From: a virus
Strand: one strand, 5' to 3'
Length of the DNA: 27,771 bases
IMG/VR virus record: IMGVR_UViG_3300033146_001206
Span: 1-27,771 of that record
The position numbers and the translations under genes are program-made. The notes below the pieces were generated by a model. That model had not been told where the DNA came from. It was given only the letters and a program-made list of their open reading frames with translations, and searched no databases. Below are positions 6,740-26,253 of this stretch, one piece after another (the first letter of the stretch is position 1; each line of letters begins with the position of its first letter).

Positions 6740-7060
6740 TTAAATATCGTCTGTAATATCATCCATTGTATTTAAGCGCATTGCATAAGACTTGGCATCT
6801 TCAATAGCTTGGTCATAATTTCCAAAATTTAACAATGATGTCAAATCTTCAATAATGCTTGGATAGTCGTCACTATCAACATGTGCGTCAATTCCATCGC
6901 CACCAATATTGTACAATGCTATATCCAATAATTTAATAGCACTTTTTTCTGGGCCAATAGCTTGGACGAGTGATTTAATTTTACTAGATTCTGTCAACAC
7001 CTCGGCCTTTGGGGTGTAATTTTCTTTGATCATATTCTCATAAATATTTTCTAATTTCAT
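6740..7060 (-). CDS. Leader-bearing small protein, paralogue of 7076-7387
   Basis: 106 residues, function not recognised. It begins MKLENIYENMIKEN. The first 13 residues match the N-termini of several other proteins here and contain IYE (6-8) and IKE (11-13), both fitting an (I/L)-x-E prohead protease site. The remainder is paralogous to the neighbour upstream: 'iksLVQaiGpEKsAikllDiAlynI' and 'iieDLtslLnfgnYdqaiedAksyAmrL' align with its 'iekLVQsnGiEKgAkeiiDmAfksy' and 'viDDLetrLhkkeYntifdrArgwAvtL'. The pair therefore arose by tandem duplication. It lies downstream of the tail tube gene and shares its late transcript, which ends at the hairpin at 6695-6718. A packaged, processed internal head protein is inferred. 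Confidence 0.6.
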   Translation of the reverse strand: MKLENIYENMIKENYTPKAEVLTESSKIKSLVQAIGPEKSAIKLLDIALYNIGGDGIDAHVDSDDYPSIIEDLTSLLNFGNYDQAIEDAKSYAMRLNTMDDITDDI

Positions 7061-7075
7061 AATAATAAGTCCTAA

Positions 7076-7387
7076 CTAATTTTGCATTTTTGAAAGAAAT
7101 GAAAAGCGGTATAAAGTGACTGCCCAGCCTCTTGCCCTATCAAAAATTGTATTATATTCCTTTTTATGTAGTCTTGTTTCTAAATCGTCAATAACCTCTT
7201 GATAAATAAAAAACTCTGTACAATCTTCGGCACCCATTTGTATATCATAACTCTTAAACGCCATGTCTATTATTTCTTTGGCACCTTTTTCAATACCATT
7301 AGATTGTACCAGTTTTTCAATTTCTGAGGGTTCCAAAGTAACATAACCCTCACTGAGCATATTTTCATAAATGAGTTCTAATTCCAT
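7076..7387 (-). CDS. Leader-bearing small protein, paralogue of 6740-7060
   Basis: 103 residues, function not recognised. The N-terminus MELELIYENMLSEG carries the shared leader with LSE at residues 11-13, a good (I/L)-x-E protease site. At DNA level the leader region closely matches the start of the methyltransferase-like gene at 16111 (GAATTAGAA..., then ATTTATGAAAATATG), which suggests a mobile leader module. The body is acidic and helical and aligns along its length with the next gene downstream. AAAGG precedes the start at good distance. It is probably co-transcribed with the tail tube. Inferred role: internal capsid protein; no catalytic motif is visible. Confidence 0.6.
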   Translation of the reverse strand: MELELIYENMLSEGYVTLEPSEIEKLVQSNGIEKGAKEIIDMAFKSYDIQMGAEDCTEFFIYQEVIDDLETRLHKKEYNTIFDRARGWAVTLYRFSFLSKMQN

Positions 7388-7400
7388 AATACACCTTTAT

Positions 7401-7952
7401 TTAATTGCCCAAAGAAATTTTGAAATCAGCAGGTTCCCACCATTGATACGCCAATGTGACGTCAACAGTAACAGGTTGACCGTTTCCAGTTTGATCATAT
7501 GCAATATCACCAACAGTTACGGGATAAATGCCGAACAATTTAATAGCACGGGCGGTATTTCCATCTCTATCATGTACAACCAATTTTCCAATTGACGAAT
7601 CACTAACAGGCCCATAAGCACCAGTATTTCGTGTTTCTCCAGGAAATGCACTAAAAATAGAACTCTGCCAATTTACCAATTTTTCTCGGATGTTCAAATT
7701 CAAATCACATCTGAAACTAACCTGCCAACTTTCCGATCCAGGAAAACTCGCTGTCCCAGGAACATTGAAATTTACACCCATATATGGAACCTGTTGGTTA
7801 TTAATCATATACCCAGGCAATACAGCCGTTGTGATATATACATTATCTGATTCTTCTAAAATCCCACCCAAGCTCAAAACACGCATTTGAAAGTTTCTTG
7901 AAAAATCTTTGTTAATAGCTTGTGTATAAAATCCACCTAAACCAAAACTCAT
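7401..7952 (-). CDS. Tail tube protein, gp19-like
   Basis: 183 residues, close to T4 gp19 (163). The pattern follows gp19: 'fqmrVlslGgi...yittavLPGymInnqqVPYMGvnFnVPGtasFPGsesWqVsFrcDlnlnIReKlvnWQssIfsafpGe', then 'aiklFGIYPVtVGDIaYDqtgngqpVtvdVTLAYQWWEp'. The last strand, with YPVTVGDI and LAYQWWE, is highly characteristic of T4-type tube subunits. The protein stacks in hexameric rings inside the sheath to form the DNA conduit. The start follows ATAGGAG, and a variant late box (GGTAAATA) lies 28 bases upstream. It is separated from the sheath gene only by a homing endonuclease gene; in T4, genes 18 and 19 are adjacent. Confidence 0.88.
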   Translation of the reverse strand: MSFGLGGFYTQAINKDFSRNFQMRVLSLGGILEESDNVYITTAVLPGYMINNQQVPYMGVNFNVPGTASFPGSESWQVSFRCDLNLNIREKLVNWQSSIFSAFPGETRNTGAYGPVSDSSIGKLVVHDRDGNTARAIKLFGIYPVTVGDIAYDQTGNGQPVTVDVTLAYQWWEPADFKISLGN

Positions 7953-7980
7953 TTTAATCTCCTATCTTAATCTTTATAAA

Positions 7981-7988
7981 TATTTACC
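7981..7988 (-). promoter_or_regulatory. Late promoter-like box GGTAAATA
   Basis: The minus strand reads GGTAAATATTTATAAAG 28 bases upstream of the tail tube start. It shares TAAATATTTATAAAG with the box in front of the sheath gene, so the two promoters are probably related by sequence. The first two bases deviate from TATAAATA. Confidence 0.5.
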
Positions 7989-8022
7989 AAAAACACCATT
8001 TTTATTTTATTTGTGCCAGTGA

Positions 8023-9801
8023 TTAATAATTATTTTTAATAAAAACAAGATTCCCACAGTCCCAGATTCTTCGGTATCCATTTAAGAACATATTATGATG
8101 CTCGGATAGACTACTATCAAAAGTTGGTAATATTTTAGAAAGTTTGTGTTTTTGGCATTCCATTCTGGATTTAATTTCATTGCCTTTATAGTAGAAATAA
8201 TTTGGTGGTGATGTGTGGGTGTATTCAAATCCCAATTTATCATATAGATTCCCATTACTATATCGAAGGTTTGCATATGATATTATGGATTTGGGATTAT
8301 AGTGTTTTTCAAAGTATGATAAAAGCTTTCCAGCACCACCGATAACATTATAACCACACAGACCACAATATCGAACCAACTCCCATTCAATTTTTTTGTC
8401 ATATCTTGATTTAGAAAATGTCATGATTGACACTAGTTTTCCATCATGCATGAGACTAACACACACGGAACTGATGTCTTTTCCTTGTAGGTGATTGTTA
8501 ATTAAAAACTTGTTTTTATCTGCTGTGGGGATGTCTTCCGTTACACTACATTTCCTAGCATATAATCTTTTTGATTTTCCTAATTTTGATGAAATCATAG
8601 ATTTCCATATCTTCCTTTTTAATGGGTTTTTCCACTCATTTGAAAATATGTGATAAAGTGATACGGCTTTATCATTACATAATTTTGTTTTGTCTAAATG
8701 GTTTGTTCTATTGACATTCTCCTTTTTATGATTATTCATAATACCTGCCGTGATCCCAAATGAATGATAAAATAATCCGTTATATTCTATAGCAAATTTG
8801 TGCACTGGGATATAAATGTCCAATTCTTTTGGATAAATCACATCTGTAACATTTTCTTCTATTCCGACGTCTAATGCTTGAATAAAATCCTTCACTTCTT
8901 GCTCTTCTTTTGAAATGCCCTTATCACCGTAACACCCGCTACAATAGATATCACCAATCTTTCCATTGTTTAATAGTGGTGTTATGATTGTATTGCATTT
9001 ATCGCAATGCAGTCTTAGACGTGTATTATTCAAACCATTAAAGCTTTCTTTTGGTGTTAATAATGTGAACCCTTGGGATTTAAGTAGATCGATAATATCA
9101 TCATACATATTATCATTTCGCACTTTGCCGTTATATTCAACAAAACAGGCTGGACAGGATTTACTATAACCATATTTGTAATTTCTATATTTGGTTTTGG
9201 CTCCACAAATTTGGCATGCATGTGTTCCGTGTTTTAATATGTAAAACCGTTCACTCCAATGCAGGTCATTGGCATCAAATTGCAGTGTTTGTTCAGTATC
9301 CTTTATTATGCTACATAATATATCTATATTATTTTTTTTATGAGATTCGAGAATAAAGCGAGATTTGGTTCCTCCACGTGTTTTCGTTATCCTGCCATCA
9401 ATAAAGGAAATATATGGTTTGTGTGTATATGCACCTGAAACATATGCACATATAAATGCTTCATGTATTTTTTTGTTTGCAGACTTTTTTGTTTTAGAAG
9501 ATGATTTCCAAGATGATTTATTCTTTCGTTTGCATGAATTTTTATTACATGTTTTGTGATATCCACTAGAATAGGTTTGGAATTGTACAACAGAATTACA
9601 GAATTTGCACGTGGGCTGTGTTGAGATATTGTTCATATAACAATATATTATTTCGCTCGGTGATGATGCAAAATTGATTTGTGACTTCATATCACAAAAC
9701 TCTGGCGATGTTAAAAATTTGTCTCTGCGAATTATTGCAGAGTTTAATTTCCCAGTTTTGGTGAATAATGAATCTAAAATATATTGTTTATGACTAATCA
9801 T
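8023..9801 (-). CDS. Free-standing homing endonuclease (Vsr-like/EDxHD type, with zinc fingers)
   Basis: 592 residues. The N-terminal half has three Cys4 zinc-binding sites: C65/C68 with C85/C90, C196/C199 with C216/C219, and C266/C269 with C287/C290. Next is a Vsr-like nuclease domain: E302 in 'EEQEVKDFI', D328 in 'ELDIYIP', 'FAIEYNGLFYHS' (E339, H346), and H369-D370 in 'NHLDKTKLC', a fair match to the EDxHD arrangement of phage homing enzymes. The C-terminal 180 residues ('LYARKC', VSLMHDGKLVSIMTFSKSR, 'GGAGKLLSYFEKHY', 'YDKLGF') look like the GNAT-like domain often fused to such nucleases. It is inserted between sheath and tube genes, the usual place for such mobile genes. It probably cuts related phages lacking it. 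It has AAAGGAG and its own promoter candidate; the frame is intact. Confidence 0.82.
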   Translation of the reverse strand: MISHKQYILDSLFTKTGKLNSAIIRRDKFLTSPEFCDMKSQINFASSPSEIIYCYMNNISTQPTCKFCNSVVQFQTYSSGYHKTCNKNSCKRKNKSSWKSSSKTKKSANKKIHEAFICAYVSGAYTHKPYISFIDGRITKTRGGTKSRFILESHKKNNIDILCSIIKDTEQTLQFDANDLHWSERFYILKHGTHACQICGAKTKYRNYKYGYSKSCPACFVEYNGKVRNDNMYDDIIDLLKSQGFTLLTPKESFNGLNNTRLRLHCDKCNTIITPLLNNGKIGDIYCSGCYGDKGISKEEQEVKDFIQALDVGIEENVTDVIYPKELDIYIPVHKFAIEYNGLFYHSFGITAGIMNNHKKENVNRTNHLDKTKLCNDKAVSLYHIFSNEWKNPLKRKIWKSMISSKLGKSKRLYARKCSVTEDIPTADKNKFLINNHLQGKDISSVCVSLMHDGKLVSIMTFSKSRYDKKIEWELVRYCGLCGYNVIGGAGKLLSYFEKHYNPKSIISYANLRYSNGNLYDKLGFEYTHTSPPNYFYYKGNEIKSRMECQKHKLSKILPTFDSSLSEHHNMFLNGYRRIWDCGNLVFIKNNY

Positions 9802-9822
9802 TGGTATGCTCCTTTAACTATA

Positions 9823-9850
9823 ATTATACACAAACAAAAAAAAAGAGCAA
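9823..9850 (-). promoter_or_regulatory. Possible sigma70-type promoter for the homing endonuclease
   Basis: The minus strand has a perfect -10 TATAAT (9828-9823), with TTGCTC (9850-9845) 16 bases upstream as a poor -35. It overlaps the stem of the sheath terminator. It would give the mobile gene its own expression, independent of the late transcript. Confidence 0.35.
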
Positions 9851-9869: not shown

Positions 9870-9888
9870 ATTTTATTCTTTTAACGTA

Positions 9889-12774
9889 TTATATTAATTC
9901 GCTAAAATCTTGGCTTGTTTTTGTGCAAATGAAGTTAAGCAAAATGAACTCAGCAACACGAACAGGCTTGATATAGATATCAACGATTAACTCGTTTCGA
10001 TCAATAGAATCAGGCGTATTATTGCGCTCGTCACAAACAATTAAGTATTCGTAGATACCTTCGTTGTTCTTTGCAAACTCAAAGATTGGCTCCAAAGCAC
10101 TTTTCAGACGTTCACGTGTAAATACTGTGTTTTGTTCAAACACGAAGTATCTAGCCACTTGAAGTGAGGCTTTTTCCAACCACAAGAATAATCTTCTAAC
10201 ATTAATTCTATCGAATGCAGAAGGTTTTGCTTGTAGGGTTTTTTGGCCCCAAACAACATAACCGTCATTAGGCCAGTATACCGTTGGATTAATGCCATTC
10301 TTATATAGCAAATCACGCTGTTTCAACGTAGGGTTGATACCAATGTCATTAACATTAGTTAACAAGCCACGTGTCAACCCTGCTGGTGCAAACCATGGGA
10401 AGAAATTAGTATCGGTATCGATCATCTTTCTAGCCATCCAACCAGACGGTGGCATCCATACAAACTTCCCAGTTGCCTTGTCATTAGTCTTGAACCAGTT
10501 AGCATAGGTACACGCATAGTTCGTATTGGCAAACCCAAAAAGGTTTTTAAGAGGCCATAGGATGTGCTGAGAATAATTTTTCTCTTTATCATCCATGACT
10601 TTCATAGTGCCATTACCCTGAACAAAGATGTATCTTAGTGGATCGGCAATATACAAACAATCTTTTCTTGTATACTGGCAGAATTGATTGAAAACATTAA
10701 AAATGGTTTCATACAAATCTTGCGCCTCGGCAGACGATCCAGTTTTTTGATCCAACAGACCGTCCGAATCCTTATCAAATCTGTGGTTATTCAGAATACC
10801 ATTAACAAATTTGGTGTCATCGAAGTTTTGGGCTGTTTGGGTGTAGTCATATGAATTTGTAGTCTCTGCTGGCCAGTTGGCCATATCCAATTTCATACCA
10901 GTCCAAACAGTCCCCAAACCACCTTCTGGAACAAGGTCAATACGAAGTAATTCATTGTTTTCAGCTAAAGTAAAGGCACGTTCCAATTTCATAGGAAGGT
11001 TTCCAATATACTTATTGCTTCTTGAGAAACAAGTACTAGCTTCACCAATGGCATATAGATTATCACCAGATTTTATGTCCTTATAACTACTCCCCATCGA
11101 ACGCAACAGGTTGGAATTGTACGCTGGGAAATATTCAGACTCATCATCTTCAATTGGTTTGGATGATACTAATCTAGCTGGTCGATATACACGAACGGCT
11201 TTCAATCTTTCTTTTTTCTGAATATCGACCCATGGAGAACCTAGTCCATTGTCATTTCCTGTAATATTAGGATTAAGGAAAATTTCAAAATTCTTAGAAT
11301 TGTTATTGACAACATCCTCTAAAAAGAAATTACTGCTAGAACCGCTTTGGTCTACAATAGTTCTACTATAATCAAAAGAACCAACATATGTTTCATACAG
11401 CATAGAGTCTAGTACTTTATCCTCGGATGTGTACAATGAAGGTCTGGCCTTAAAGATTGACAATACAACGCTATCAGAATAGCCGTCGGCACCATATTTT
11501 GTAATATTAAAATCTGGAACAGATTCTACAATTTCAGAAATACTACCTTGATTACTACTTTCTGTTCCTGTTAATGTGAATGCCAAACTTGATTTGTTTA
11601 AGTCCAACCATTCCGTGGAATCAATAGACGTAGTAATACTTTTCATGTTTTTAAGACTATCATAATCAGAACGTCTTTCCATTTGAGTATTATCGGCAAT
11701 CCCAACATAATATCCAGCGTATAAGTCATCAATGGCGGTTTTTTGCTTATTAACAAGAATCATGCCAGCATAACCAAGACCACTTAAATCTGCCATAGTG
11801 GTCACGTCAAGTGATTCTGGCAATCCTGTTTTCCAAGAAATTGCACCTTGTTTAATGTCATTATATTGCGAATCTGAAAGGGAAATATGATACGGTTCAC
11901 CAATAAAATAATTGTTGGCTGTATCAAATTTTTGATGGTGCGTTTGTGTGGCACTAGTGTCACAAGTTATGGTGGCACTCAATGGGCCGACAAAATTCTT
12001 ATTATTTGTCAATGAACCCAATGTAACATTAAGGACTGTGTACGTTTCTCCAAGTGCTGTGCCAACTTCTTCGACAAGTGTGTATGTTCCAATCAAATTA
12101 GCACCCCCAGGGTTCGATTGTGCTAAATTGCCATTACCATCTCCGTATAGGCGGGTTCTTATAAATGGGCCAATTGACTGTGTATAATTACTTGGATCAC
12201 CATCGTGAAACGTGTGAAAATGACCACTAAGATTAACGGCCAATGTAGATTCATCAAAAATCTGTGTTTTATAGCCCTGAATGTTTTTAGAAATATATCC
12301 CTTTATATTTAATGTTGACGACATTCTATCAGCACTTGGCAAGCGGGTTTCTGTTGCCGCGTCAAATTGTTCATCATATAATAAGGTATCTGCAACCGAG
12401 GTATACATACTACAAACATTTGCCATCAATGTTTCATTTTTAATGATTTCTGGTAGCATAGGATAAACCAAAGCACTATACTTATTTGTAAACCCTTCAC
12501 CAGAACCAGAACCATATGGCAATCTTGTTGTTAATAAATTCCCCTTTGAATTTAGAACTTCTTTACATGTAGTATAGAAGTAACGTTCAGCGGAATTGGT
12601 TGGCAGACCATAAATCTGTTCTAATTCATCTGTACTAGTGATATTAATCAATTCATCAGTTGGGCCTTGTTTGGCATAACCTACAGAAAAGATTGTTGTC
12701 CCTACTGGTAGTTGAGTATTAAATGACAAATCAATTTCATTGATTTCTACTCCTGGACTCTCTAATGTTCTCAT
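9889..12774 (-). CDS. Contractile tail sheath protein, gp18-like
   Basis: 961 residues, much longer than T4 gp18 (659). The N-terminus 'SPGVEINEIDLS', 'pvGTTiFsVGYAKQGPTDELInITStDELEQIYGLPT' and 'AERYFYTTCkEVLnSkGNLLTTRLPYGsG' is the standard sheath opening. The C-terminal 180 residues are also typical: WMPPSGWMARKMIDTDTNFF, 'pWfAPAGLtRGlLtnv', 'lNPTvYWPndGyvvWGqKTLqakpsaFdRinVRRLFlwLEka', and the closing strand 'DIYIKPVRVAEFILLNF'. The middle (about 170-600) holds the extra material and is probably surface-exposed domains. The protein assembles around the tube and contracts to drive it into the cell. AAGGAG precedes the ATG, with a perfect late box 31 bases upstream and a strong terminator after the stop, so it is probably a single-gene late transcript. 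Confidence 0.93.
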   Translation of the reverse strand: MRTLESPGVEINEIDLSFNTQLPVGTTIFSVGYAKQGPTDELINITSTDELEQIYGLPTNSAERYFYTTCKEVLNSKGNLLTTRLPYGSGSGEGFTNKYSALVYPMLPEIIKNETLMANVCSMYTSVADTLLYDEQFDAATETRLPSADRMSSTLNIKGYISKNIQGYKTQIFDESTLAVNLSGHFHTFHDGDPSNYTQSIGPFIRTRLYGDGNGNLAQSNPGGANLIGTYTLVEEVGTALGETYTVLNVTLGSLTNNKNFVGPLSATITCDTSATQTHHQKFDTANNYFIGEPYHISLSDSQYNDIKQGAISWKTGLPESLDVTTMADLSGLGYAGMILVNKQKTAIDDLYAGYYVGIADNTQMERRSDYDSLKNMKSITTSIDSTEWLDLNKSSLAFTLTGTESSNQGSISEIVESVPDFNITKYGADGYSDSVVLSIFKARPSLYTSEDKVLDSMLYETYVGSFDYSRTIVDQSGSSSNFFLEDVVNNNSKNFEIFLNPNITGNDNGLGSPWVDIQKKERLKAVRVYRPARLVSSKPIEDDESEYFPAYNSNLLRSMGSSYKDIKSGDNLYAIGEASTCFSRSNKYIGNLPMKLERAFTLAENNELLRIDLVPEGGLGTVWTGMKLDMANWPAETTNSYDYTQTAQNFDDTKFVNGILNNHRFDKDSDGLLDQKTGSSAEAQDLYETIFNVFNQFCQYTRKDCLYIADPLRYIFVQGNGTMKVMDDKEKNYSQHILWPLKNLFGFANTNYACTYANWFKTNDKATGKFVWMPPSGWMARKMIDTDTNFFPWFAPAGLTRGLLTNVNDIGINPTLKQRDLLYKNGINPTVYWPNDGYVVWGQKTLQAKPSAFDRINVRRLFLWLEKASLQVARYFVFEQNTVFTRERLKSALEPIFEFAKNNEGIYEYLIVCDERNNTPDSIDRNELIVDIYIKPVRVAEFILLNFICTKTSQDFSELI

Positions 12775-12858: not shown

Positions 12859-13455
12859 TTAGATGAGGTTTATATCCATTTGGTTGAAAACAAATGAAAA
12901 ATGGCATTTCAATTGGCTGTCATCTCTGTAATTATATGATAGTTGTCCCAATTTAGTCAAAAACGCATATTTGAATGTGAATTTTGTAGTTTCATTATTA
13001 TATTCATCAAGGCCAATAATTTTTATGTCAGTAACGTAATCATATTCCGTTTCTGGTAATAGTTTTGGTTTACCGTCTGGAAACACATCTTTGCTGGCAT
13101 ATAGTCCAGATGTTTTATCATTATATAGATTTAACCATTTTTGAAGTATCCAGTAATTCTTATATTCATTATCAACTTCAAAACTGCAAACCACTGGTGG
13201 GTATGCTGGCCTGTCATATGATGTTATATTGTAATTTTGCCCGTAAATATGTAATGGATGTTCTGGCACATTTATTTCTGGGATGGTTGCATCATACAAT
13301 GAAAACTGTATTGAGTCTAAATTTATAAGCTCTTCTTCTCGTTTGGAGGTTGATTCCAAATGCTTAAAAATTGTGGGAATATTCATCACAAATCTAAACT
13401 TATCAGAACGGCTTTTATTTAATGACGCCTGTATTGTTGGTTTTGTTATTGTCAT
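12859..13455 (-). CDS. Tail-tube-like structural protein between terminase and sheath
   Basis: 198 residues. I start it at MTITKP because the ATG overlaps the terminase stop as ATGA, giving translational coupling; an ATG six codons earlier lies inside the terminase frame. The pattern 'SDKFRFVMNIPtif', then 'iqFSLydatIPEiNVPEhplhIYGQnyniTsydRPaYPPvvcsFeVDneyknYWiLQkWLnlynd' and 'lKChFSFvFNqMdinl' fits the tube/beta-barrel superfamily of tail proteins (gp19-like). As a canonical tube protein exists at 7401-7952, this one may be a tube terminator, a neck or baseplate tube-like ring, or a second tube subunit. T4 has no gene at this position between 17 and 18. No catalytic motif is seen. Confidence 0.55.
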   Translation of the reverse strand: MTITKPTIQASLNKSRSDKFRFVMNIPTIFKHLESTSKREEELINLDSIQFSLYDATIPEINVPEHPLHIYGQNYNITSYDRPAYPPVVCSFEVDNEYKNYWILQKWLNLYNDKTSGLYASKDVFPDGKPKLLPETEYDYVTDIKIIGLDEYNNETTKFTFKYAFLTKLGQLSYNYRDDSQLKCHFSFVFNQMDINLI

Positions 13456-15173
13456 TGTGCAACTATACTCCATCCATTGTCGGTCATTTCATCAACACCA
13501 TTTTTCTGACTACCCTCATTAATATTTAGGAAATTTGGTAAAGGCGCATTCATATTTTTTTGATAAAACGGGTCTAGTGGCAAATAATTGTCATTCTCAA
13601 CAACTAATTTTTTTATTTTGAGGGGTTTGCCATTTTTATCATACGATATAACCTCAAAATACTGGGTTATTAATTCGTCGATAAGAATTAACAGAGACCA
13701 AATCAAACAATCAACACGGTCATCCCAGATATTTGTCCCTTTACGTTTTTTCCATGTTCCGTTTGGATGTTTAATAAACGTTTTAAATTCATTTATTGTT
13801 CCGATATCATTTAATGTTACTGCTCTTAATGTGTTTACCCAATATCGCATATTCGTTACACCAGTATATTTTGTGTTTGTATGGGAATACACACCTAAAC
13901 GAATTTTTTGTGTTGGGTCATATGAAACTAAATTTGGATAGTGGTGAACTATGTTTAATAGTGATAACACTTCACCGCCGCAATTATTTCTTTCAATTAG
14001 AAGTGGTGCTTGTCCCCAATGATTTCCAATTCTATTTAACACTTCTGCAAAACAAGCTGGGTCTATCATATTGTTATGATAAGTTGCAACTTGTATTATA
14101 TTCGTTAAATCTGTTAAATCTAACACACATGCAGTTGATGCCGCTTGGCCAATACCTTCACCAACATCAACACCAATGGCGTAAATTCGATCCTTTTTGG
14201 GGGCTTTCCAAATTTTATATTTGTTATTCTCATAACTATATAATGGATCAGCACACTTTGCTTTTAACTCATTCAACAACTCATTATCAACTGCGGTTTC
14301 GCCTGTTTCTAAAAATTCATTTTCAAATTCTTGCTTAAATAATACTTCATCATTATTCAATGCTTGTAACATTGATTTTTTCCAACGTTTATCACGACCT
14401 GGAATTTCGTCCCAATTAACTTTTTCATGCGCCCACTCATCTAAATCCCCACTTTCAGAACCAGAAAATATTTCATGAAATTTATTTCCTGTTCCGTTTG
14501 GTGTTGAAACTGCAAATATTTTTGTTTTTTTACTTGAAGAAATGGCAGGAATGACCGACCCCCAAAAATCTTCCATTAAATGGGGTTGAATATATGCCAT
14601 TTCATCTATCATCAAAAGATTCACAGATTCACCACGAACAGCACTTCCTGTTGTTGTGCTAATTGCTATACTAGAACCATTTGCAAAGATAACTTCTGTT
14701 ATCCCCCATTGGTCAATCCCAGGTTTTAGCCAGTTTGGAAGTTTTTTATATGCGGTTTTTATTCTTCTAAGAATATTAATAGCAGTTTTTTCTTTATTGG
14801 CAACAATAACAATTCTTTGATCTTTATTAAAACATGCAATCCACATTGCATATATGGTCATAAGGGTGGTTTTTCCAAATTGGCGAGATGTGCAAACTAC
14901 AACGAATCTGTTTTTTGACATTTTCTTTAAGACTTTTTTTTGTGGCCCATAAAGACTAATTTTTTGTTTCCCCTCATCCAAATTAATAATATAAAAATAA
15001 TTTTCTGCAAAATAAAGAATGTTTTTATCGCATTTTGTAATTTCATTTATCTTTTCAGGTGTCCATTCAATTTCAGCATTAGCCTTTGGCAATCTCTTAT
15101 CTTTTAAGTATTGCTGGTTTGTTGGTAAATCATCATTTAAGCTTGATTTGTTGTGTATATTGTCATTCTTCAT
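13452..15173 (-). CDS. Terminase large subunit, gp17-like
   Basis: 573 residues from ATG 15173, near T4 gp17 (610). ATPase motifs: Q-loop region 'FAENYFYIINLDEGK' and 'YGPQKkvLkkM', Walker A CTSRQFGKTT (95-103), Walker B LLMIDEMAY (186-193), coupling motif STPNGTG (223-229). The nuclease domain starts at YAIGVDVGEG (331-340, D336) and ends in 'iWDDRVDCLIWSLLIL'. It packages concatemeric DNA into the prohead with ATP and cuts it. The frame stays open for 50 codons upstream, but that stretch has no protein-like character and overlaps the divergent gene's promoter. No Shine-Dalgarno precedes ATG 15173, so the start is uncertain. The stop overlaps the next gene's start (ATGA). Confidence 0.93.
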   Translation of the reverse strand: MKNDNIHNKSSLNDDLPTNQQYLKDKRLPKANAEIEWTPEKINEITKCDKNILYFAENYFYIINLDEGKQKISLYGPQKKVLKKMSKNRFVVVCTSRQFGKTTLMTIYAMWIACFNKDQRIVIVANKEKTAINILRRIKTAYKKLPNWLKPGIDQWGITEVIFANGSSIAISTTTGSAVRGESVNLLMIDEMAYIQPHLMEDFWGSVIPAISSSKKTKIFAVSTPNGTGNKFHEIFSGSESGDLDEWAHEKVNWDEIPGRDKRWKKSMLQALNNDEVLFKQEFENEFLETGETAVDNELLNELKAKCADPLYSYENNKYKIWKAPKKDRIYAIGVDVGEGIGQAASTACVLDLTDLTNIIQVATYHNNMIDPACFAEVLNRIGNHWGQAPLLIERNNCGGEVLSLLNIVHHYPNLVSYDPTQKIRLGVYSHTNTKYTGVTNMRYWVNTLRAVTLNDIGTINEFKTFIKHPNGTWKKRKGTNIWDDRVDCLIWSLLILIDELITQYFEVISYDKNGKPLKIKKLVVENDNYLPLDPFYQKNMNAPLPNFLNINEGSQKNGVDEMTDNGWSIVAQ

Positions 15174-15234: not shown

Positions 15235-16023
15235 ATGAAAAATAAAGATTGGCAAGATGAGTTGTTTGATTTGTATAGTAACGGCGTCCTAACTGAAAGT
15301 AAGGGTGGGGATACTACTGGCAAATCTGGAAAAGTTAAATCAGATGTTAAAGTTGGAAAAAGCTTTGATGGTGCAGAGAAAGAAGAACCACAAACTGGAA
15401 CTAAAAGCCCTGCTATGAAAGATGTAAAAAAATCAAAAGAAAAGAAAACTAAATTAAAGGAGAGTGCAAGAATGAAAAACGAATCTTTTGACGATCTTTA
15501 TGATAAGATTTTAAGTGAAGATGTTTTTGATCAAGATGAAAGCGCGGTTGAACGTAGTGACGCTGGTGAATTTAATGACGATATGGAAGACTTCCCACCA
15601 GAAGGTGAAGACGATGGCGTGGGCGATGAAGTTGATGTTGCAACTGAATTGAAAATGGTTATCGACACCCTTTCAGATATTGCTGAAAGAATGGGTGCCT
15701 TTGATGGTGAAGAAGAAGGTGAAGAAGAAGGTGATGGGTTTGGTGGAGAAGAAGGTGGCGAAGGGTTTGAACCTGAACTAGAAGAATCTGTTCAAGTTAA
15801 ACTTCAAAAGCTTAAATCATCAGTATCAAAGCTTCAAGGTAAGAACAACAAAGTTGCTTCAAAATTTAAGGCTACTGGTGGAAAGGCCAAAAATGTTGGC
15901 CCTGGAAAAGGAAAATGCGATGGAAAGATCGAAAATCCTGGAAAATCTAAGTTTAGTCCTACCATGTCGGGCAAAGCGAATGGAAATTCACCAGCAAATA
16001 AAGCAAATGCAGATTTGTTTTAA
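15235..16023 (+). CDS. Acidic prohead core/internal head protein, with leader
   Basis: 262 residues, extremely charged and low-complexity. Residues 1-21 form a leader-like segment ending VLTE (L-T-E at 19-21). Residues 22-79 are Lys/Ser/Gly-rich. Residues 80-95 start a second leader-like segment, MKNESFDDLYDKILSE (LSE at 93-95). Then come a strongly acidic Glu/Gly tract (about 155-185, repeated GEEEG), a short amphipathic helix, and a basic Lys/Gly-rich tail. This resembles the acidic prohead core proteins of T4-like phages (gp67/gp68 type), which fill the prohead and are cut up by the prohead protease. GGAG precedes the first ATG and AAGGAG the second, in-frame ATG at 15472, so two products are likely. 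A terminator follows directly. Confidence 0.6.
   Translation: MKNKDWQDELFDLYSNGVLTESKGGDTTGKSGKVKSDVKVGKSFDGAEKEEPQTGTKSPAMKDVKKSKEKKTKLKESARMKNESFDDLYDKILSEDVFDQDESAVERSDAGEFNDDMEDFPPEGEDDGVGDEVDVATELKMVIDTLSDIAERMGAFDGEEEGEEEGDGFGGEEGGEGFEPELEESVQVKLQKLKSSVSKLQGKNNKVASKFKATGGKAKNVGPGKGKCDGKIENPGKSKFSPTMSGKANGNSPANKANADLF
15472..16023 (+). CDS. Alternative in-frame product of the prohead-core-like gene
   Basis: An in-frame ATG at codon 80 of the gene at 15235 is preceded by AAGGAG at 15456-15461, ten bases upstream, a stronger site than needed by chance in a Lys-rich stretch. It begins MKNESFDDLYDKILSE, itself a leader with an L-S-E site, so a separate 183-residue protein with its own leader is plausible. 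Alternatively the site is simply a Lys-Glu codon run and the segment is a second protease site in one precursor. Confidence 0.4.
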   Translation: MKNESFDDLYDKILSEDVFDQDESAVERSDAGEFNDDMEDFPPEGEDDGVGDEVDVATELKMVIDTLSDIAERMGAFDGEEEGEEEGDGFGGEEGGEGFEPELEESVQVKLQKLKSSVSKLQGKNNKVASKFKATGGKAKNVGPGKGKCDGKIENPGKSKFSPTMSGKANGNSPANKANADLF

Positions 16024-16047: not shown

Positions 16048-16079
16048 GGGGATTGGTTTAGAACTGATCCCCTTTTTTT
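16048..16079 (+). terminator. Rho-independent terminator
   Basis: GGGGAT (16048-16053) pairs with ATCCCC (16067-16072), extended inward by wobble and Watson-Crick pairs to a TAG loop, followed by seven T (16073-16079). It ends the prohead-core-like transcript. The next late box begins at its last T. Confidence 0.8.
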
Positions 16080-16086
16080 ATAAATA
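16079..16086 (+). promoter_or_regulatory. T4-like late promoter box TATAAATA
   Basis: A perfect TATAAATA directly after the terminator T-run, 24 bases before ATG 16111, whose ribosome site is GAGGAAG. It probably drives the four-gene set up to 18716. Confidence 0.7.
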
Positions 16087-16110: not shown

Positions 16111-16680
16111 ATGAAACAAGAATTAGAATTAATTTATGAAAATATGTTAGAAGATCGTTTTAATGAAGATCAGCCATTAAATTCTGATAATGAGGGGCAG
16201 TCATTTGATGATGATTATATTACACAAGCTGGAAGAACTGCAAGACCATGGAAAAGCACCGCTGTGTGCAAAAAAGCAGTTGAATATATTTCTGAGGGAG
16301 ATAAAGTTTTAGATTATGGTTCTGGGCCATTTCAAAAGATCAGACCAACTATTGAAGCTTTAGGTGCAGAATATATACCATTTGATAGATATAATAATAT
16401 TGGGTCTATGAATGATTTACATAATAATGATCTTGTTATGCTTAGTAATGTATTAAATGTTGCAGTAAAGGCTAGTGATCCAGAAAAGGTTTATTATAAT
16501 ATTCTACATGAAGCTATTGGTGCGGCAAAAACTGGTGGAATACTAGTTGCAAATATTCCAAAAATTGGCCCAATGGCTGATTGGATGACTGTTGAAAAGC
16601 TTGAAAGTGATATGTCTGAATTTTTTGGTCATATTAAAGCATGGCGCAGTGGTGTAGTTGTTGGTTTAGACAAAATATAA
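16111..16680 (+). CDS. SAM-dependent methyltransferase-like protein with capsid leader
   Basis: 189 residues. Residues 1-15, MKQELELIYENMLED, carry the shared leader (IYE at 8-10). Residues 41-189 have a class I methyltransferase outline: 'GDKVLDYGSGPFQK' (motif I, VLDYGSG at 66-72), 'lGAEYIPFDRYN' (acidic end of strand 2), 'NNDLVMLSNVLNV' (motif IV-like strand), and 'iLheAigAaktGGiLVaNIPK' (motif V/VI helix-strand). No NPPY or DPPY motif is present, so a DNA N6-adenine type is not supported, and the substrate is unknown. It comes after a perfect late promoter and before a neck protein, so it is probably made with virion proteins. I infer that it may be packaged and injected. The frame is intact. 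Confidence 0.6.
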   Translation: MKQELELIYENMLEDRFNEDQPLNSDNEGQSFDDDYITQAGRTARPWKSTAVCKKAVEYISEGDKVLDYGSGPFQKIRPTIEALGAEYIPFDRYNNIGSMNDLHNNDLVMLSNVLNVAVKASDPEKVYYNILHEAIGAAKTGGILVANIPKIGPMADWMTVEKLESDMSEFFGHIKAWRSGVVVGLDKI

Positions 16681-16692: not shown

Positions 16693-17583
16693 ATGAGGTG
16701 CAATTCAAATAATCCATACGGAAACAATTATAGGGTTCTGAGAAAATCTACGAACTTAAATGAACGTAGATTGTTCCAAAGCTATTGGCAAGAACTTGTG
16801 AATATATATGGGACATATATTGATTATTATACTGATATGTATTCGCTGACATCTCATGATTCCTTTTATGGTGAAGATACAACCGCGCCATATAGCAAGC
16901 CAACTGGTCTTGTTTTGTTGGCAGAATTTAATAATGACTCATTACTCTTATCTAAATTCGGCATTCAAACAGATGCGGATGCAACATTTATTATTCCGAT
17001 CCTAACATACAGAGAAACATTTGGCCCAAATGCTGAACCAAAATCTGGGGATTTAATTCGTATGACTGAACTGGGCCTAGACCGCCCAGGAGGTCTTAAC
17101 GATATGAATACTATAACTGCTATGCCAACTGCATGTGACGAACGATTTGACCCCTTAAAAGCAGTTTGTCGGGAGAATTCCGAGGACGGTGCGGTTGTTG
17201 ATTGTCATACCGACGAACAATTAACATCAGAGTATGATGATTTGAATAATTTTAATAATTTATTGCGTGGTGCTCCAGTGTTTGAAATAACAGAACGCCG
17301 TGATGAAATTTTGAACATGCAATACAATTCATTACTAGGACATTATGTTTGGATTATACATGCCAAACAATATGATTATAGTTATAGACCAGAGGCACCA
17401 AGAACTCCTGGGTCAGATCAAGTTAGTGATGATACATTATATGGTAAATTGTCTGGTGACAATAATTCAAATTGGGCAGAGAATCCCAAACTATACGAAC
17501 AGAATACTGAAAAACAAAGTAATGAAATCTGGGATTATGATATGCATTCAAATAGTAATGACAGTGTATATGGTGAATACTAA
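16693..17583 (+). CDS. Neck protein, gp14-like
   Basis: 296 residues against 256 in T4 gp14. The order of features fits gp14: an N-terminal helical part ('erRLFQSYWQELVNIYGTYIDYYTD'), an 'FYGEDTTAPY' motif comparable to the 'ifGED' of gp14, 'LLaEFNndSLLLSKFGIQTDADATFIIP', 'PKSGDLIRMTE', 'GAPVFEITERRDEI', and 'GHYVWIIHAKQYDYSYRPEAP'. gp14 joins the filled head to the tail via the neck. The C-terminal 50 residues are Asn/Asp-rich and repeat short 'YG(K/E)' units. TGGGG precedes the ATG. The stop codon overlaps the next start (TAATG). The family call is from memory of gp14 patterns. Confidence 0.65.
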   Translation: MRCNSNNPYGNNYRVLRKSTNLNERRLFQSYWQELVNIYGTYIDYYTDMYSLTSHDSFYGEDTTAPYSKPTGLVLLAEFNNDSLLLSKFGIQTDADATFIIPILTYRETFGPNAEPKSGDLIRMTELGLDRPGGLNDMNTITAMPTACDERFDPLKAVCRENSEDGAVVDCHTDEQLTSEYDDLNNFNNLLRGAPVFEITERRDEILNMQYNSLLGHYVWIIHAKQYDYSYRPEAPRTPGSDQVSDDTLYGKLSGDNNSNWAENPKLYEQNTEKQSNEIWDYDMHSNSNDSVYGEY

Positions 17584-18320
17584 TGAAAATTACATTTGAG
17601 AAATTATTTAATGAAATGGCCATTGGTCGAGATAAGGCCGAAACATTAAATGTTAAAAAACGCATACCAAATACCGATGATGTTAAGGTTGCTATTAAAA
17701 ACTCTGGTGGAAAAATTGAAAAAGGCGGGGTGAGTATTCCAGTAACAAGACGCCAGAATAAAGATCAAGTGGACGAACAATCATCTAGGAGTTGTGTGTA
17801 TTACTTGCCAGCAAAGACCAAAAACAAATATACGGGCAGTGGTTTTTATGGTGGATCATATCATGTTGAGCAAGAGATATTTGTAAAAAGGCCGTTTGTT
17901 GTTAAAGGCTCAACTGGTGGCTCTGTTCCAAAAAATGCACTAATTAAGTTGACAAAGGATAAAAAAATCTATACAAGTATTCAAAGCGATGCAATGAAAG
18001 TTATTTTTAAGACAATACAAAATGAACCTGCATCAGATGTTATTTTAGAACTTGAGAAGGTATTGAAACAATATGGCGGCAATGTTCCCGATGCAAGCAA
18101 TATGTATTATACTGCAAAAAAGGTTGGTGGAAATTTTTTAATTATGGCAGTCTCAGAAAATATTGCGGCAAACAATATAAGAAATGCTGGCTATGACAGT
18201 ATTCTGGGTGTGTCATATACCAAGCAGAAAGAACCATTTTTGGGAGAAATTATAGATTTGAGAGAAATTAGCTATCCAAGTCAAGAACAATCGGGTGATA
18301 TCCATCCAAGCTATTATTAA
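17583..18320 (+). CDS. Putative ADP-ribosyltransferase-fold protein with leader-like N-terminus
   Basis: 245 residues. It begins MKITFEKLFNEMAIG, similar to the other leaders but with F-N-E rather than (I/L)-x-E. Residues about 60-115 ('SCVYYLPAK', 'GSGFYGGSYHVEQEIFVKRP', 'FVVKGSTGGSVPKNALIKL') and 160-240 ('YYTAKKVGGNFLIMAVSENI', 'iRnAGYDSILGVSY', 'EPFLGEIIDLREisYP') recall phage ADP-ribosyltransferase-like polyvalent-protein domains, in which a 'nPlvvkg.tGG' strand is followed by 'aGYDaiig' and a strand with a Glu. I cannot place all catalytic residues. T4 Alt, an ADP-ribosyltransferase carried in the head and injected, would be the functional parallel. It is coupled to the gp14-like gene by TAATG and so is a late gene. 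Confidence 0.45.
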   Translation: MKITFEKLFNEMAIGRDKAETLNVKKRIPNTDDVKVAIKNSGGKIEKGGVSIPVTRRQNKDQVDEQSSRSCVYYLPAKTKNKYTGSGFYGGSYHVEQEIFVKRPFVVKGSTGGSVPKNALIKLTKDKKIYTSIQSDAMKVIFKTIQNEPASDVILELEKVLKQYGGNVPDASNMYYTAKKVGGNFLIMAVSENIAANNIRNAGYDSILGVSYTKQKEPFLGEIIDLREISYPSQEQSGDIHPSYY

Positions 18321-18332: not shown

Positions 18333-18716
18333 ATGCTAATAGAAAAATACAACAAAGTTTTAGTTCCAACTAACTTAAAATCAATTCAACGTCTTATTTC
18401 ACAAATTGAAGCAATGGCGGCAATTTCAACTGATATTAATGAGTATGATAATGGCGAAGGTTTTAACTCTCCCCATTCTAAATTCTATTTTTATGAAGGT
18501 GGAAATTCTATAACATATAATAAAACTGTTCCAATTGAAGATATTATTGAATGGTTGAATATCCTCAACACATATAAAAATACTCAGATAAGTGGTTATG
18601 ACGATTATAGCGCCGCTGAGAAGTTGTATGATGCGTCTAAACAAATGGATGATTTGGATAATACTATTGGTGGGCTAGTTAAATCTGCGGGTGTTAAAAT
18701 ACATGGGATCATTTGA
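18333..18716 (+). CDS. Hypothetical protein, end of the late neck operon
   Basis: 127 residues, not recognised. A helical N-terminus ('nLKSIQRLISQIEAMAAIS') is followed by a Tyr/Asn-rich middle ('SKFYFYEGGNSITYNK') and two further amphipathic helices. It lies 12 bases after the ADP-ribosyltransferase-like gene with a weak ribosome site (AAGATG) and ends nine bases from the convergent gene at 18725, with no clear terminator between. The short N-terminus (MLIEKYNKVL) lacks a clear leader match. It may be a partner or specificity factor of its upstream neighbour, but nothing in the sequence shows that. Confidence 0.55.
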   Translation: MLIEKYNKVLVPTNLKSIQRLISQIEAMAAISTDINEYDNGEGFNSPHSKFYFYEGGNSITYNKTVPIEDIIEWLNILNTYKNTQISGYDDYSAAEKLYDASKQMDDLDNTIGGLVKSAGVKIHGII

Positions 18717-18724: not shown

Positions 18725-19099
18725 CTAATGAAAATTAAAGAAACTTTCAAAGTTATCTTTTACAGGAGTTTTATGATTGGTAGCCTCGGCTACCGCCGTG
18801 TCCCAAGTGTGTGTGTTTAGATTTATTTCATTATTTGAAACCCACGACAAAATACTAGATACTTGGGGCAATCGTTCTTGTATTGAATTACTTTTATTTT
18901 CAGACAACATAAATTCATTGTCATTTTTTAACTGTCCAACAAACCAATCAACGTGCTCATTAAATGTATCTTCACACAAGGCGTTGATTGTACTTTTACA
19001 AATCCCATAGTTTGCACACTCTTGCTTAAATTGGGTTTTTAAGGAAACCTTGTGGTGCTTGAGCATCCCTTCATAAATTATACCAATTCTATCGTGCAT
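18725..19099 (-). CDS. Hypothetical protein with capsid-leader-like N-terminus
   Basis: 124 residues, function unknown. The start MHDRIGIIYEGMLKHH matches the 'IYE(N/G)ML' leader of the genes at 6740, 7076 and 16111, with I-Y-E at 8-10 as a possible protease site, though the second (I/L)-x-E is missing. The body has four Cys (C28, C33, C42 and possibly structural others) and mostly helical segments. GAAGGA precedes the ATG, and a late-type box AGTAAATA lies 30 bases upstream. It is a single-gene unit convergent with the neck operon. Confidence 0.55.
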   Translation of the reverse strand: MHDRIGIIYEGMLKHHKVSLKTQFKQECANYGICKSTINALCEDTFNEHVDWFVGQLKNDNEFMLSENKSNSIQERLPQVSSILSWVSNNEINLNTHTWDTAVAEATNHKTPVKDNFESFFNFH

Positions 19100-22718: not shown

Positions 22719-22907
22719 ATGTTATCTGGAAATATTGAAAATAGACCAATGGGATGTAATTATTGTGGCAGTGGCCCATGGAATGGGCGGGAATCTACAC
22801 GAAAAGAACGCACAGAATTGATTACAGAATGTACGTGGGTGTGTGGTAGATGTGGTATGGTTATCAACCAAGGGGTAATTAAACGTGAAAAAATCAACAC
22901 AAAATAA
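22719..22907 (+). CDS. Small zinc-ribbon protein
   Basis: 62 residues with two knuckles: C13/C16 in 'CNYCGSG' and C42/C45 in 'CGRCGM', a Cys4 zinc ribbon, with a further Cys at 38. The rest is short and charged. ATATGGAG precedes the ATG. Function unknown; such ribbons often bind nucleic acid or another protein. It overlaps the next gene by 23 bases in another frame. Confidence 0.6.
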   Translation: MLSGNIENRPMGCNYCGSGPWNGRESTRKERTELITECTWVCGRCGMVINQGVIKREKINTK

Positions 22908-23337
22908 TGTTTTCACTAGTGTTATTGAAGAAGTGTTTGGTGGTGCTAGTGGTGGTGGGTCTGGATCATTTACATATGCACAGCAAACTGGTGCTATGAG
23001 TTGGAACAATAGACCGTCACCAGCACACAGAGCGTCTACGTCAGACTCACTGGGATATAACATTAAAGATATCGCAGAAGAAGATGAAGTTGCTCACGAA
23101 GCCCCAAAGGTTAAACCGTTCCCTTTAGACAATATTGATGAATTGCTTGTAGACGCATATTTGGCACTCTGTGCTACAAATGAACAGTTGAAAATGTGTA
23201 TCAAGAGTAATGGTGCGATAAACACCGAAGACAATAAAGAAGCTAAAAAAACGCTAAAAAAACAATATACAAAAATCGAACAGTTAAAAGAAGAAATCAA
23301 AAAAGTATCAAGTCAAATTGATATTGTTGTGTTTTAA
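22885..23337 (+). CDS. Hypothetical protein with leader-like N-terminus and C-terminal coiled coil
   Basis: 150 residues starting at GTG 22885 (AAGGGG nine bases upstream), overlapping the zinc-ribbon gene. The N-terminus MKKSTQNNVFTSVIEEVFGG is weakly leader-like with I-E-E at 13-15. A Gly/Ser-rich linker follows (GGASGGGSGS), then a polar region ('NNRPSPAHRAST'), then two helices, the last a coiled coil ('KKTLKKQYTKIEQLKEEIKK'). Not recognised. A virion-associated role is possible from the upstream late-type box, but unproven. Confidence 0.6.
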   Translation: MKKSTQNNVFTSVIEEVFGGASGGGSGSFTYAQQTGAMSWNNRPSPAHRASTSDSLGYNIKDIAEEDEVAHEAPKVKPFPLDNIDELLVDAYLALCATNEQLKMCIKSNGAINTEDNKEAKKTLKKQYTKIEQLKEEIKKVSSQIDIVVF

Positions 23338-23370
23338 TTAAAGTAATAAACCCTAAAAATAAGAGGTATG

Positions 23371-23986: not shown

Positions 23987-24413
23987 ACACGACCCGTTTA
24001 CAAATGTTGCAAGTTCTTCTATTCCATTAAATAAACCAAAAGAAAAAGAAGAACAAGTATTAAAAATAAAAGAAAATATCTTTGATTTTATTGAGAACAC
24101 GGATATGAAAAATTACAGTGTGTTGGATACTGGGTATAATCTTGGAAAAATAAAGCCTGTATTCCAAACACCAAAAATGTGTTTAGACCAATTCATACGG
24201 CATTATACGGAAACAATTTCAAAAATATATGCAGAATCATCTGAGGTCAATCCAAATATTGTTAACATATTAGATAATTACAATTCATTAACTAAAATCT
24301 TGACAAGTACAATGGAAGCTGATAATATATCAGACGTAAATTCAAAACAAGTCATTTTGTATTTGATTGGAATATTAATAGCGTATTTAGAGGATGAAAT
24401 TGAATATGAGTAA
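23973..24413 (+). CDS. Hypothetical helical protein
   Basis: 146 residues, not recognised. A polar N-terminus (about 25 residues) is followed by mostly amphipathic helices ('VLKIKENIFDFIENTD', 'CLDQFIRHYTETISKIYAES') and an acidic C-terminus with a hydrophobic helix ('VILYLIGILIAYLEDEIEYE'), which is probably a buried rather than a membrane helix. GAGG lies nine bases before the ATG, within the preceding gene. Tightly packed in the 22719-24956 series. Confidence 0.6.
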   Translation: MEANKHDPFTNVASSSIPLNKPKEKEEQVLKIKENIFDFIENTDMKNYSVLDTGYNLGKIKPVFQTPKMCLDQFIRHYTETISKIYAESSEVNPNIVNILDNYNSLTKILTSTMEADNISDVNSKQVILYLIGILIAYLEDEIEYE

Positions 24414-24645
24414 AATTACAGAAACAGTTGAAGCAATGGACGTCGAAACACTATCAAGATATGCGTCATTGTTTGAGGCAATTGATTTGATAGACATGAA
24501 TTGTAAAAAATATAAAACAGACTTCAAAAAAATTAAATTTAATGTTGTTGGATTAAAGAAATATGTAAATGATACACATAAAAATCATGCAAAACGGTTG
24601 CAGGATGAACACCTTAGCCAAAAATTACAAAAGATTGGATACTAA
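24406..24645 (+). CDS. Small basic helical protein
   Basis: 79 residues if started at ATG 24406; an in-frame ATG at 24394 sits directly on AGAGG and so is less likely to be used. Highly helical and Lys-rich ('SRYASLFEAIDLID', 'KYKTDFKKIKFN', 'HKNHAKRLQDEHLSQKL'). Overlaps the previous gene by eight bases and the next by one (TAATG). Not recognised. Confidence 0.5.
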   Translation: MSKITETVEAMDVETLSRYASLFEAIDLIDMNCKKYKTDFKKIKFNVVGLKKYVNDTHKNHAKRLQDEHLSQKLQKIGY

Positions 24646-24956
24646 TGATATACATTGTTGGACATAAATTCCCCGTAACAAAAACGGGCAATAACATGAT
24701 AAATAAACGCATTGAAAAATTAATCAACGCATATGGTGGAAAATTCCAATATGATGTCACGTATAGTGTCCACCATATATCAAAGACAGATGATAACAAA
24801 GTCAAATATCAATTCCTAAGCAATATGGGAGAAATGTTTGACTGTGATTTTGTATCTGTTGGGGACGCTGAAAGAGTTATTTCAACATTATCAAATAAAA
24901 CAGATGAGTTGGGTGCTATGAGAGCGGCCATTATGAAAAACTTGGCAAGCTCTTAA
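24645..24956 (+). CDS. Hypothetical protein, end of the small-gene series
   Basis: 103 residues, not recognised. An N-terminal strand 'MIYIVGHKFPVTKTGN' and a beta-rich middle ('KFQYDVTYSVHHISK', 'KVKYQFLSNMGEMFDCDFVSV') lead into C-terminal helices. It starts by TAATG coupling, and its TAA overlaps the stop of the convergent nucleotidyltransferase gene by four bases (TTAA at 24953-24956). Confidence 0.55.
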   Translation: MIYIVGHKFPVTKTGNNMINKRIEKLINAYGGKFQYDVTYSVHHISKTDDNKVKYQFLSNMGEMFDCDFVSVGDAERVISTLSNKTDELGAMRAAIMKNLASS

Positions 24957-25852
24957 TCACCTTTAACATCAACAGTATTCATTTTACCAATATAAGATGC
25001 TAGATTTCGCATGGAATTTACGTTCCTGTGATTTCTGCCATCCTTATATAAAGCATTTATCTTCTTGAGAAACTTTAAATAATAATACTTCTCAAGTAAT
25101 TTATAAACAACGTTCTCAGGTAAATTGTTACGACTACCAAGCTCTTTGATCTCATGAGGGGTTAACCGTGTGTTAAATGCGTCTTTGCGTGCTTGCAAAA
25201 CGTTCTCATAGGTATTAGATAAACTCTTAATGTTCTCTTCAATGTTATCAAGCTTAGTCTTAATCAAAGATCGAAGCTTAATAGTCTTACTCTGACCCAA
25301 AGACTTAATCTCAAAAATATCAATCAAATCACGCTTCAATTCACCAGTGTCAATATCAATGCTACTAACGGTATCAAAAAACTTCCCAGCAATTTTGCTG
25401 ATATCTGGATCAACTTCGGCATCACTTTTAATCCAACGCTCATTTACAATATCATAAATAGCATCAAATTTATCATCGGGAATATCATCAAAAGAAATAT
25501 AATAATTAATAGGATGGGTAGTGCCAGTAGCAAGCTCTCCATTATACTTCTTAACCCAATGAAGTAAATCGGCCCTCATCATCTCATCAACGCGTTCCTT
25601 GTCAACAATTACATTAACATCAATATCGCAAGCCTTACTATACTTCTTAGTTAAAATACTGCCAACCATATAAAAATCAAGAATGTTTACAAAACTCCCA
25701 AGACTATCAAGCTTTGTAAGGATTTGAGCCTTAATAGAATCTTGAAGAATAGGCTCACCACCATCATCATAAAATTGGAAAACAGTAGGGTCTAAACTAT
25801 TACGACTAATGTTAACAATAGACTCGGAAATAACAGTATTGAAAATCCGCAT
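24953..25852 (-). CDS. Nucleotidyltransferase-fold protein with leader-like N-terminus
   Basis: 299 residues. The N-terminus MRIFNTVISES contains I-S-E at 8-10, an (I/L)-x-E site like the other leaders. Residues about 55-85 hold the polymerase-beta-type nucleotidyltransferase signature: YMVGSILTKKYSKACDIDVN, i.e. G-S at 64-65 and D-x-D at 76-78 followed by a hydrophobic strand. A third acidic residue could come from 'NYYISFDDIPDD' (about 111-122). The remaining 150 residues are helical ('EIKSLGQSKTIKLRSLIKTK', coiled). The reaction (AMP or NMP transfer to protein or RNA) cannot be told. AGAGG precedes the ATG, and the upstream leader gene is five bases away, so they form a late two-gene operon. 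Confidence 0.65.
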   Translation of the reverse strand: MRIFNTVISESIVNISRNSLDPTVFQFYDDGGEPILQDSIKAQILTKLDSLGSFVNILDFYMVGSILTKKYSKACDIDVNVIVDKERVDEMMRADLLHWVKKYNGELATGTTHPINYYISFDDIPDDKFDAIYDIVNERWIKSDAEVDPDISKIAGKFFDTVSSIDIDTGELKRDLIDIFEIKSLGQSKTIKLRSLIKTKLDNIEENIKSLSNTYENVLQARKDAFNTRLTPHEIKELGSRNNLPENVVYKLLEKYYYLKFLKKINALYKDGRNHRNVNSMRNLASYIGKMNTVDVKGD

Positions 25853-25857
25853 AAAAA

Positions 25858-26253
25858 TTAACCTCTATTGTTTTCTAACCACTCGGAAGTCATGTCAGTT
25901 ATTACTTCGGTTAATTTAGTATACAATTCAACGTTTTTTTCTAATTCAGCATTCTCACGGGTAGCTTGTAATGTGTGGATGTTGTATTCAGTAACATCTA
26001 AATCATCAATCTCAAAACCACTAATAAACGTGTACTTACCATAACCCGTTTCACGGTTGTAATCAGAATCATCTCCAATGGTGTATTGACCACTAAGGAT
26101 AACACTATAAAATCGATCAGGACGCCCAACATACTTACCATCTAAATCATCAATTTCATGGGAAAACTCTTCCCTACTATCAAATTCAGCATCAACAGAA
26201 CTGTAGCTCTCCTGAATAATACTACGGCATAAACTATCAAAACTCTTTTTCAT
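25858..26253 (-). CDS. Hypothetical protein with capsid-leader-like N-terminus
   Basis: 131 residues, not recognised. It begins MKKSFDSLCRSIIQES with I-Q-E at 13-15, closely matching the pattern of T4 internal-protein leaders. The body is acidic with a beta-rich middle ('RPDRFYSVILSGQYTIGDDS', 'YGKYTFISGFEIDDLDVTEY') and C-terminal helices. GGAG lies upstream. Two late-type boxes precede it, and it shares its transcript with the nucleotidyltransferase. It may be a co-packaged partner; no evidence for an inhibitor or antitoxin role beyond adjacency. Confidence 0.55.
   Translation of the reverse strand: MKKSFDSLCRSIIQESYSSVDAEFDSREEFSHEIDDLDGKYVGRPDRFYSVILSGQYTIGDDSDYNRETGYGKYTFISGFEIDDLDVTEYNIHTLQATRENAELEKNVELYTKLTEVITDMTSEWLENNRG

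Follow-up and report, generated by a model that had tools for sequence, protein, structure and literature searches.

The window analyzed here, the entire IMG/VR record IMGVR_UViG_3300033146_001206 (27,771 nt), is a fragment rather than a complete genome of an uncultured T4-like contractile-tailed phage, and it contains a set of genes whose products begin with a similar short N-terminal leader of 10–21 residues that resembles the capsid-targeting sequence (CTS) of phage T4. All ten of the starts that an earlier note on this DNA had listed as bearing such leaders are present; one of them, 15472, is a nested start of the gene at 15235 and not a separate leader gene. The leader genes and their associated signals are listed below, and genes are referred to by their lower coordinate.

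6740–7060 (−): leader protein A2; leader MKLENIYENMIKE at 7022–7060; tandem paralog of A1
7076–7387 (−): leader protein A1; leader MELELIYENMLSE at 7349–7387; directly behind a same-strand tail-tube gene
15235–16023 (+): nested leader gene adjoining gp17; leader 1 MKNKDWQDELFDLYSNGVLTE at 15235–15297; clade-conserved gp17 neighbour
15457–15462 (+): Shine-Dalgarno sequence AAGGAG for the internal start, 9 nt upstream of ATG 15472
15472–16023 (+): internal in-frame product of 15235; leader 2 MKNESFDDLYDKILSE at 15472–15519
16079–16086 (+): T4-type late promoter sequence TATAAATA, preceding 16111
16111–16680 (+): putative methyltransferase-like protein; leader MKQELELIYENMLED at 16111–16155
17583–18320 (+): basic protein (body pI 9.3); leader MKITFEKLFNE at 17583–17615, with Alt-like spacing
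18725–19099 (−): leader-like protein; MHDRIGIIYEGMLKH at 19055–19099, the Glu absent from its usual place
22885–23337 (+): leader protein with a GTG start; leader MKKSTQNNVFTSVIEE at 22885–22932
24953–25852 (−): putative nucleotidyltransferase-like protein; leader MRIFNTVISE at 25823–25852
25858–26253 (−): leader protein; leader MKKSFDSLCRSIIQE at 26209–26253; upstream of 24953 on the same strand
26301–26308 (−): T4-type late promoter sequence TATAAATA, preceding 25858–26253 and 24953–25852

The bodies behind these leaders had been described as different, and a comparison within the window found no convincing similarity among them outside one pair; this pair, 6740 and 7076, is similar across its whole length (36% identity, E=2e-13), and the bodies are therefore not all unrelated. 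Two of the enzyme folds claimed earlier are plausible on the basis of weak profile matches and motifs: 16111 would be methyltransferase-like (PF17987, E=3e-4, below the Pfam cut-off, with a VLDYGSG motif), and 24953 would be nucleotidyltransferase-like (PF01909, NTP_transf_2, E=9e-4, 20 bits against a cut-off of 21, with a GS...DID motif), the latter also giving a weak match (E=5e-4) to the nucleotidyltransferase of an uncultured relative, L077. An ADP-ribosyltransferase had been claimed as well, but 17583 gave neither a profile match nor a PDB match to support such an assignment; an AlphaFold model of 17583 built without relatives was unusable (predicted local distance difference test score, pLDDT, 31), and the PDB sequence searches returned chance matches only. 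The open reading frame (ORF) at 18333–18716 begins MLIEKYNKVLVPTN, which resembles the leaders without Glu seen in certain orthologs of 15235 (LYEEKVFVPK in L058 and L062), and this ORF possibly carries a further leader.

Leader frequency and likeness to the T4 capsid-targeting sequence

It was confirmed that the window leaders exist and exceed chance. The bare [IL]-x-E rule is too weak to serve as the sole test of leaders, as 15 genes carry this motif near the start, while composition-preserving shuffles give 8.3 (p=0.007). A T4-derived motif, [hydrophobic]-x-x-[hydrophobic]-[ILVF]-x-E within residues 2–17, was found in 6 of the 37 window genes, where 0.42 are expected (P=3.8e-6), and in none of the reversed window proteins. 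In T4, 14 of 226 genes matched against 3.4 expected. T4 also served as a positive control, from which IPII, IPIII, Alt and gp24 were recovered. Among 792 genes of the clade to which the window belongs, 47 matched against 18.4 expected. A fuller motif with an aromatic residue or Cys at the first position and a 2–3 residue spacer, which was shaped after inspection of the data, occurs 7 times against 0.50 in shuffles, and 0 of 2000 shuffles reach 7. A first position-specific scoring matrix, anchored on the Glu with fixed spacing, was dropped because it failed to catch 15235 and 18725.

Leaders of this type are already known from T4, and those of the window differ in details. Mullaney and Black reportedly described in 1996 the T4 internal proteins IPI, IPII and IPIII with a capsid-targeting sequence. 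In the CTS of IPIII, MKTYQEFIAE, residues 4 and 7 serve targeting and residues 8 and 10 serve processing, and an Asp at position 10 blocks cutting while targeting is retained (PMC9026906). The spacing of the window leaders is that of these functional residues, 4/7 and 8/10, as seen in MRIFNTVISE of 24953 (F4, V7, I8 and E10 in T4 numbering); the leader of 15235 is one residue longer than the T4 register. The window proteins share with IPI, IPII and IPIII a short N-terminal leader with hydrophobic residues at 4 and 7, I/L at 8 and Glu at 10, as well as differing bodies behind the leader and, before some of the genes, a sequence of the same late-promoter type; they differ in favouring LIYENML(S)E, where cutting could occur at either of two sites, in their mostly acidic bodies, in the density of about ten leaders in 27.8 kb, and in the presence of one nested gene bearing two leaders.

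N-terminal 11-mers from 1514 genes of the clade and the window were also compared, without gaps, with T4 MKTYQEFIAEA; leaders of the relatives ranked close to the top among all the genes. At least 5 identities were found for 19 of the 1514 N-termini, against 2.8 for a permuted CTS (17 of 2000 permutations reach 19), and for 3 of 4841 11-mers beginning at internal Met. The leader of 16111 has 5/11 identities to the T4 CTS and the clade leader subtype MKTDQDLIFEA has 7/11; MKTFKEFIKED of T4 gene 61.1 (L103 18966) also has 7/11. Another T4 leader, MELITELFDE of Alt, has the same spacing as MKITFEKLFNE of 17583, and Alt, a packaged ADP-ribosyltransferase, is an enzyme cargo; the same enzyme identity for 17583, in contrast, drew no profile, PDB or fold result. 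In phiKZ and SPN3US, a gp21-related protease cleaves inner-body and ejection proteins of the head behind a Glu, and these proteins are ejected, but several of their propeptides exceed 100 residues (PMC5694885), in contrast to the 10–21 residues of the window leaders.

Leaders, late promoters and head genes in relatives

The gp17 terminase of the window, at 13452–15173 (−), shows 31–36% identity to the best-matching cultured phages and 46–54% identity to 80 uncultured relatives, L001–L080. Searches with the sheath and the terminase place the window phage outside the cultured groups, and a nucleotide search against phages with the window gave zero matches. A simple script assigned the gene starts of the relatives, save those fixed by a late promoter.

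The relatives bear such leaders on many unrelated bodies, which supports the modularity of the leaders. Two subtypes were distinguished, one T4-CTS-like and the other D-x-x-LIFEAY-x-x-x-L-x-E. In the clade, the former includes MKTFRQFLIES on a cytidylyltransferase-type enzyme, MISFKKFVKEA on an M15-type peptidase, MNSFINFIQEE on a DUF6267 protein, MVTFKQFFYEQ on a Zn-protease-like protein and MKTYKQFLNEA on a helix-turn-helix protein. The LIFEAY string of the latter was counted at 17 N-termini and at 3 other places in 400,000 residues, and is found on several mutually dissimilar bodies. Two proteins of L074 have differing bodies behind a common leader of about 20 residues, MTFNxLYTILENDFMNGLDxV; this pair was considered as a counterpart of A1/A2 and rejected, there being no similarity. 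The clade orthologs of 22885 begin KKLILED or FKDFVKVIKED, and proteins starting with MQGFKTFLSEA and MLTLINFSKYITEDK were found in a cultured T4-like phage, Methylophilales phage Melnitz.

A variable, putative cargo slot lies between gp14 and the 15235 ortholog (window 16111–16680, L066 8223–8996, L077 7820–8929, L074 8098–8541); it holds a methyltransferase-like gene in the window and L066, a nucleotidyltransferase in L077 and a leader protein in L074. The identification of 16111 with the L066 methyltransferase of the same slot was rejected, as no similarity was found. In L077 7820–8929 (−), the nucleotidyltransferase and an HRHR-type head-neighbour protein form one ORF with an internal leader-like LIHQAYDKSLTES between them, which could be a protease-cut linker.

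Orthologs of 15235 adjoin gp17 in the relatives, and the majority carry leader 1. Leader 2 is located near residue 75–125 in 48 of 50 distinct orthologs and is the most conserved part of the protein (mean pairwise identity 0.69 vs. 0.33–0.52 elsewhere). Its Met is preceded in the relatives by TATAAATA and a short spacer, exactly in 27 of 38 distinct sequences, whereas Met 15472 of the window has AAGGAG 9 nt upstream in place of the late promoter. The presence of two different signals at the same codon supports genuine use of the internal start.

In the relatives, 88 distinct genes start right behind TATAAATA, and 28 of these, some of them mutual orthologs, have a start of the leader type against 4.2 expected. 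The window contains 7 copies against 5.2 by chance, i.e., not above chance, and exact copies precede 16111, 25858–26253, the sheath gene and 4649. The sequence ends 5 nt (also 6–7 nt) before the ATG of many late genes in the relatives L001–L122, and in their long contigs the spacing is exactly 5 nt in 30 of 152 cases; the spacing is 13–28 nt in T4 and 24–47 nt in the window, where Shine-Dalgarno sites are present. The 5–7 nt spacing implies that late mRNAs of the relatives are nearly leaderless.

A gp21-type protease gene, which the earlier note had named as a check, and a gp22 scaffold gene are absent from the 27.8-kb window fragment. Both are found in the relatives G002 and G006, the only ones with contigs reaching the head module, where gp22 lies between gp21 (PF03420) and gp23; the gp22 N-terminus there is MDIKQILSEA or DIKAILKEA, a site similar to the leaders.

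Elsewhere in the window, PHROGs matches were obtained for a tail sheath, three tail-tube proteins and one gp14-type head-closure protein. The tail-tube proteins (5554–6690, 7401–7952 and 12859–13455) all match phrog_45, and the 961-residue sheath at 9889–12774 (−) is aligned by cultured-phage sheaths in its C-terminal third only. Among the tail genes lies an orphan ORF of 592 residues with many Cys-x-x-Cys pairs, at 8023–9801 (−), which matched no family in an NCBIfam search and is perhaps a homing endonuclease. A defence-system profile search gave no convincing match.

Probable capsid targeting and its alternatives

The window leaders are probably T4-type CTSs, by which cargo would enter the prohead core, be cleaved behind the Glu and be delivered with the DNA. 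Precursors with the N-terminal leader would be made late in infection; through hydrophobic positions of the leader, equivalent to Y4 and F7 of T4 IPIII, the protein would attach to the scaffold core formed by gp22; cleavage by gp21 behind the Glu of [IL]-x-E would free the body within the head; and the freed body would be ejected into the host together with the DNA. In the window this modular leader would serve the A1/A2 paralogs, the methyltransferase-like and nucleotidyltransferase-like proteins and several orphans, and in the relatives other enzymes and small proteins. The nested pair encoded by 15235 is most likely part of the prohead core. From these sequences we infer packaging, cleavage, ejection or injection, and host action of the cargo. 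The earlier view of a modular set of internal head proteins is partly supported by the CTS spacing and, in the relatives, by unrelated bodies, late promoters and the gp21 and gp22 genes of two of them; it has to be amended for the paralogous pair.

Several observations weigh against capsid targeting with cleavage. Most leaders retain [IL]-x-E, as had been claimed, but Asp in 16111 and His in 18725 occupy the place of the usual cleavage Glu (each has an earlier I-Y-E at residues 8–10), Phe replaces the I/L of the site in 17583, and about a dozen 15235 orthologs depart from the canonical site. Loss of the Glu is no argument against a CTS, because in T4 a change of Glu10 to Asp prevents cutting but leaves targeting intact (PMC9026906). 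Most leader-protein bodies are acidic, whereas a basic character is described for T4-type internal proteins. Searches of viral contigs (for 17583 also of genomes) found no close relatives of 7076, 16111, 17583 or 24953, and tblastn searches of 16111 and 17583 against phages found no relatives. Of 22 relatives' fragments searched, only 2 contained the gp21 protease. The tail genes 4649 and 752 have orthologs that match the motif falsely, and reversed clade proteins match the T4-derived motif 27 times against 14 expected; part of the clade enrichment is therefore a general end effect. On the other side, the closest experimental hint of enzyme cargo is a cytidylyltransferase, T4-GC190, that was detected in purified virions of cyanophage S-SM1 (PMC3037559); the clade and Melnitz versions of this enzyme type have N-terminal extensions, whereas the cyanophage cytidylyltransferases read here start without a leader; the finding therefore supports packaging of enzymes of this type but not a role of the leader.

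The leaders might be a coincidence, if genes of AT-rich phages often encode short amphipathic N-terminal helices that end in Glu; the weakness of the bare [IL]-x-E rule, the chance matches in tail genes and the somewhat enriched reversed chain ends would suit this. This explanation is nevertheless highly improbable in view of the fuller-motif count that no shuffle reached, the P value of the T4-derived motif, the ungapped CTS match in the relatives and the conservation of the second leader in 15235 orthologs. Equally improbable is that the leaders stay uncut and anchor their proteins at a different late structure (portal, terminase or membrane): 15235 does adjoin gp17, and Glu is absent in 16111, 18725 and the 15235 orthologs of L058, L073 and L077, but most leaders keep the cleavage motif and gp22 has the same site. 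Somewhat less unlikely is that the leaders target the prohead core but most of the proteins are structural core or neck components, retained or destroyed rather than injected as effectors. The 15235 and HRHR genes are conserved head neighbours beside gp17 and gp14 in most relatives, and in T4 the same protease also cleaves gp22, gp67 and gp68, core proteins that for the most part disappear (PMC9026906); several bodies, however, look like enzymes (methyltransferase, nucleotidyltransferase, peptidase, cytidylyltransferase) and have a patchy distribution, as cargo would.

The clade may run a general cargo delivery system, in which a portable leader is placed on many enzymes and orphans, a variable slot located between gp14 and the neighbour of gp17 swaps cargo, and a nested core gene has within its coding sequence a late promoter that starts a second leader protein on a nearly leaderless mRNA; we regard this wider proposal as tentative, with slightly less than an even chance of being correct. 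As IPI of T4 counters a restriction system and T4 depends on IPIII when the host is one particular E. coli strain (PMC9391042), counter-defence is a reasonable guess for the function of the cargo, and no more than that. Apart from T4 and the giant phages, little is known of what enters the host along with phage DNA. A leader recognizable in the sequence itself would point directly to candidate injected proteins in a group of uncultured phages, among them enzyme-like proteins with a possible role in the first minutes after infection, and the old T4 observation that targeting (4/7) and cutting (8/10) are separable would turn into predictions for named proteins.

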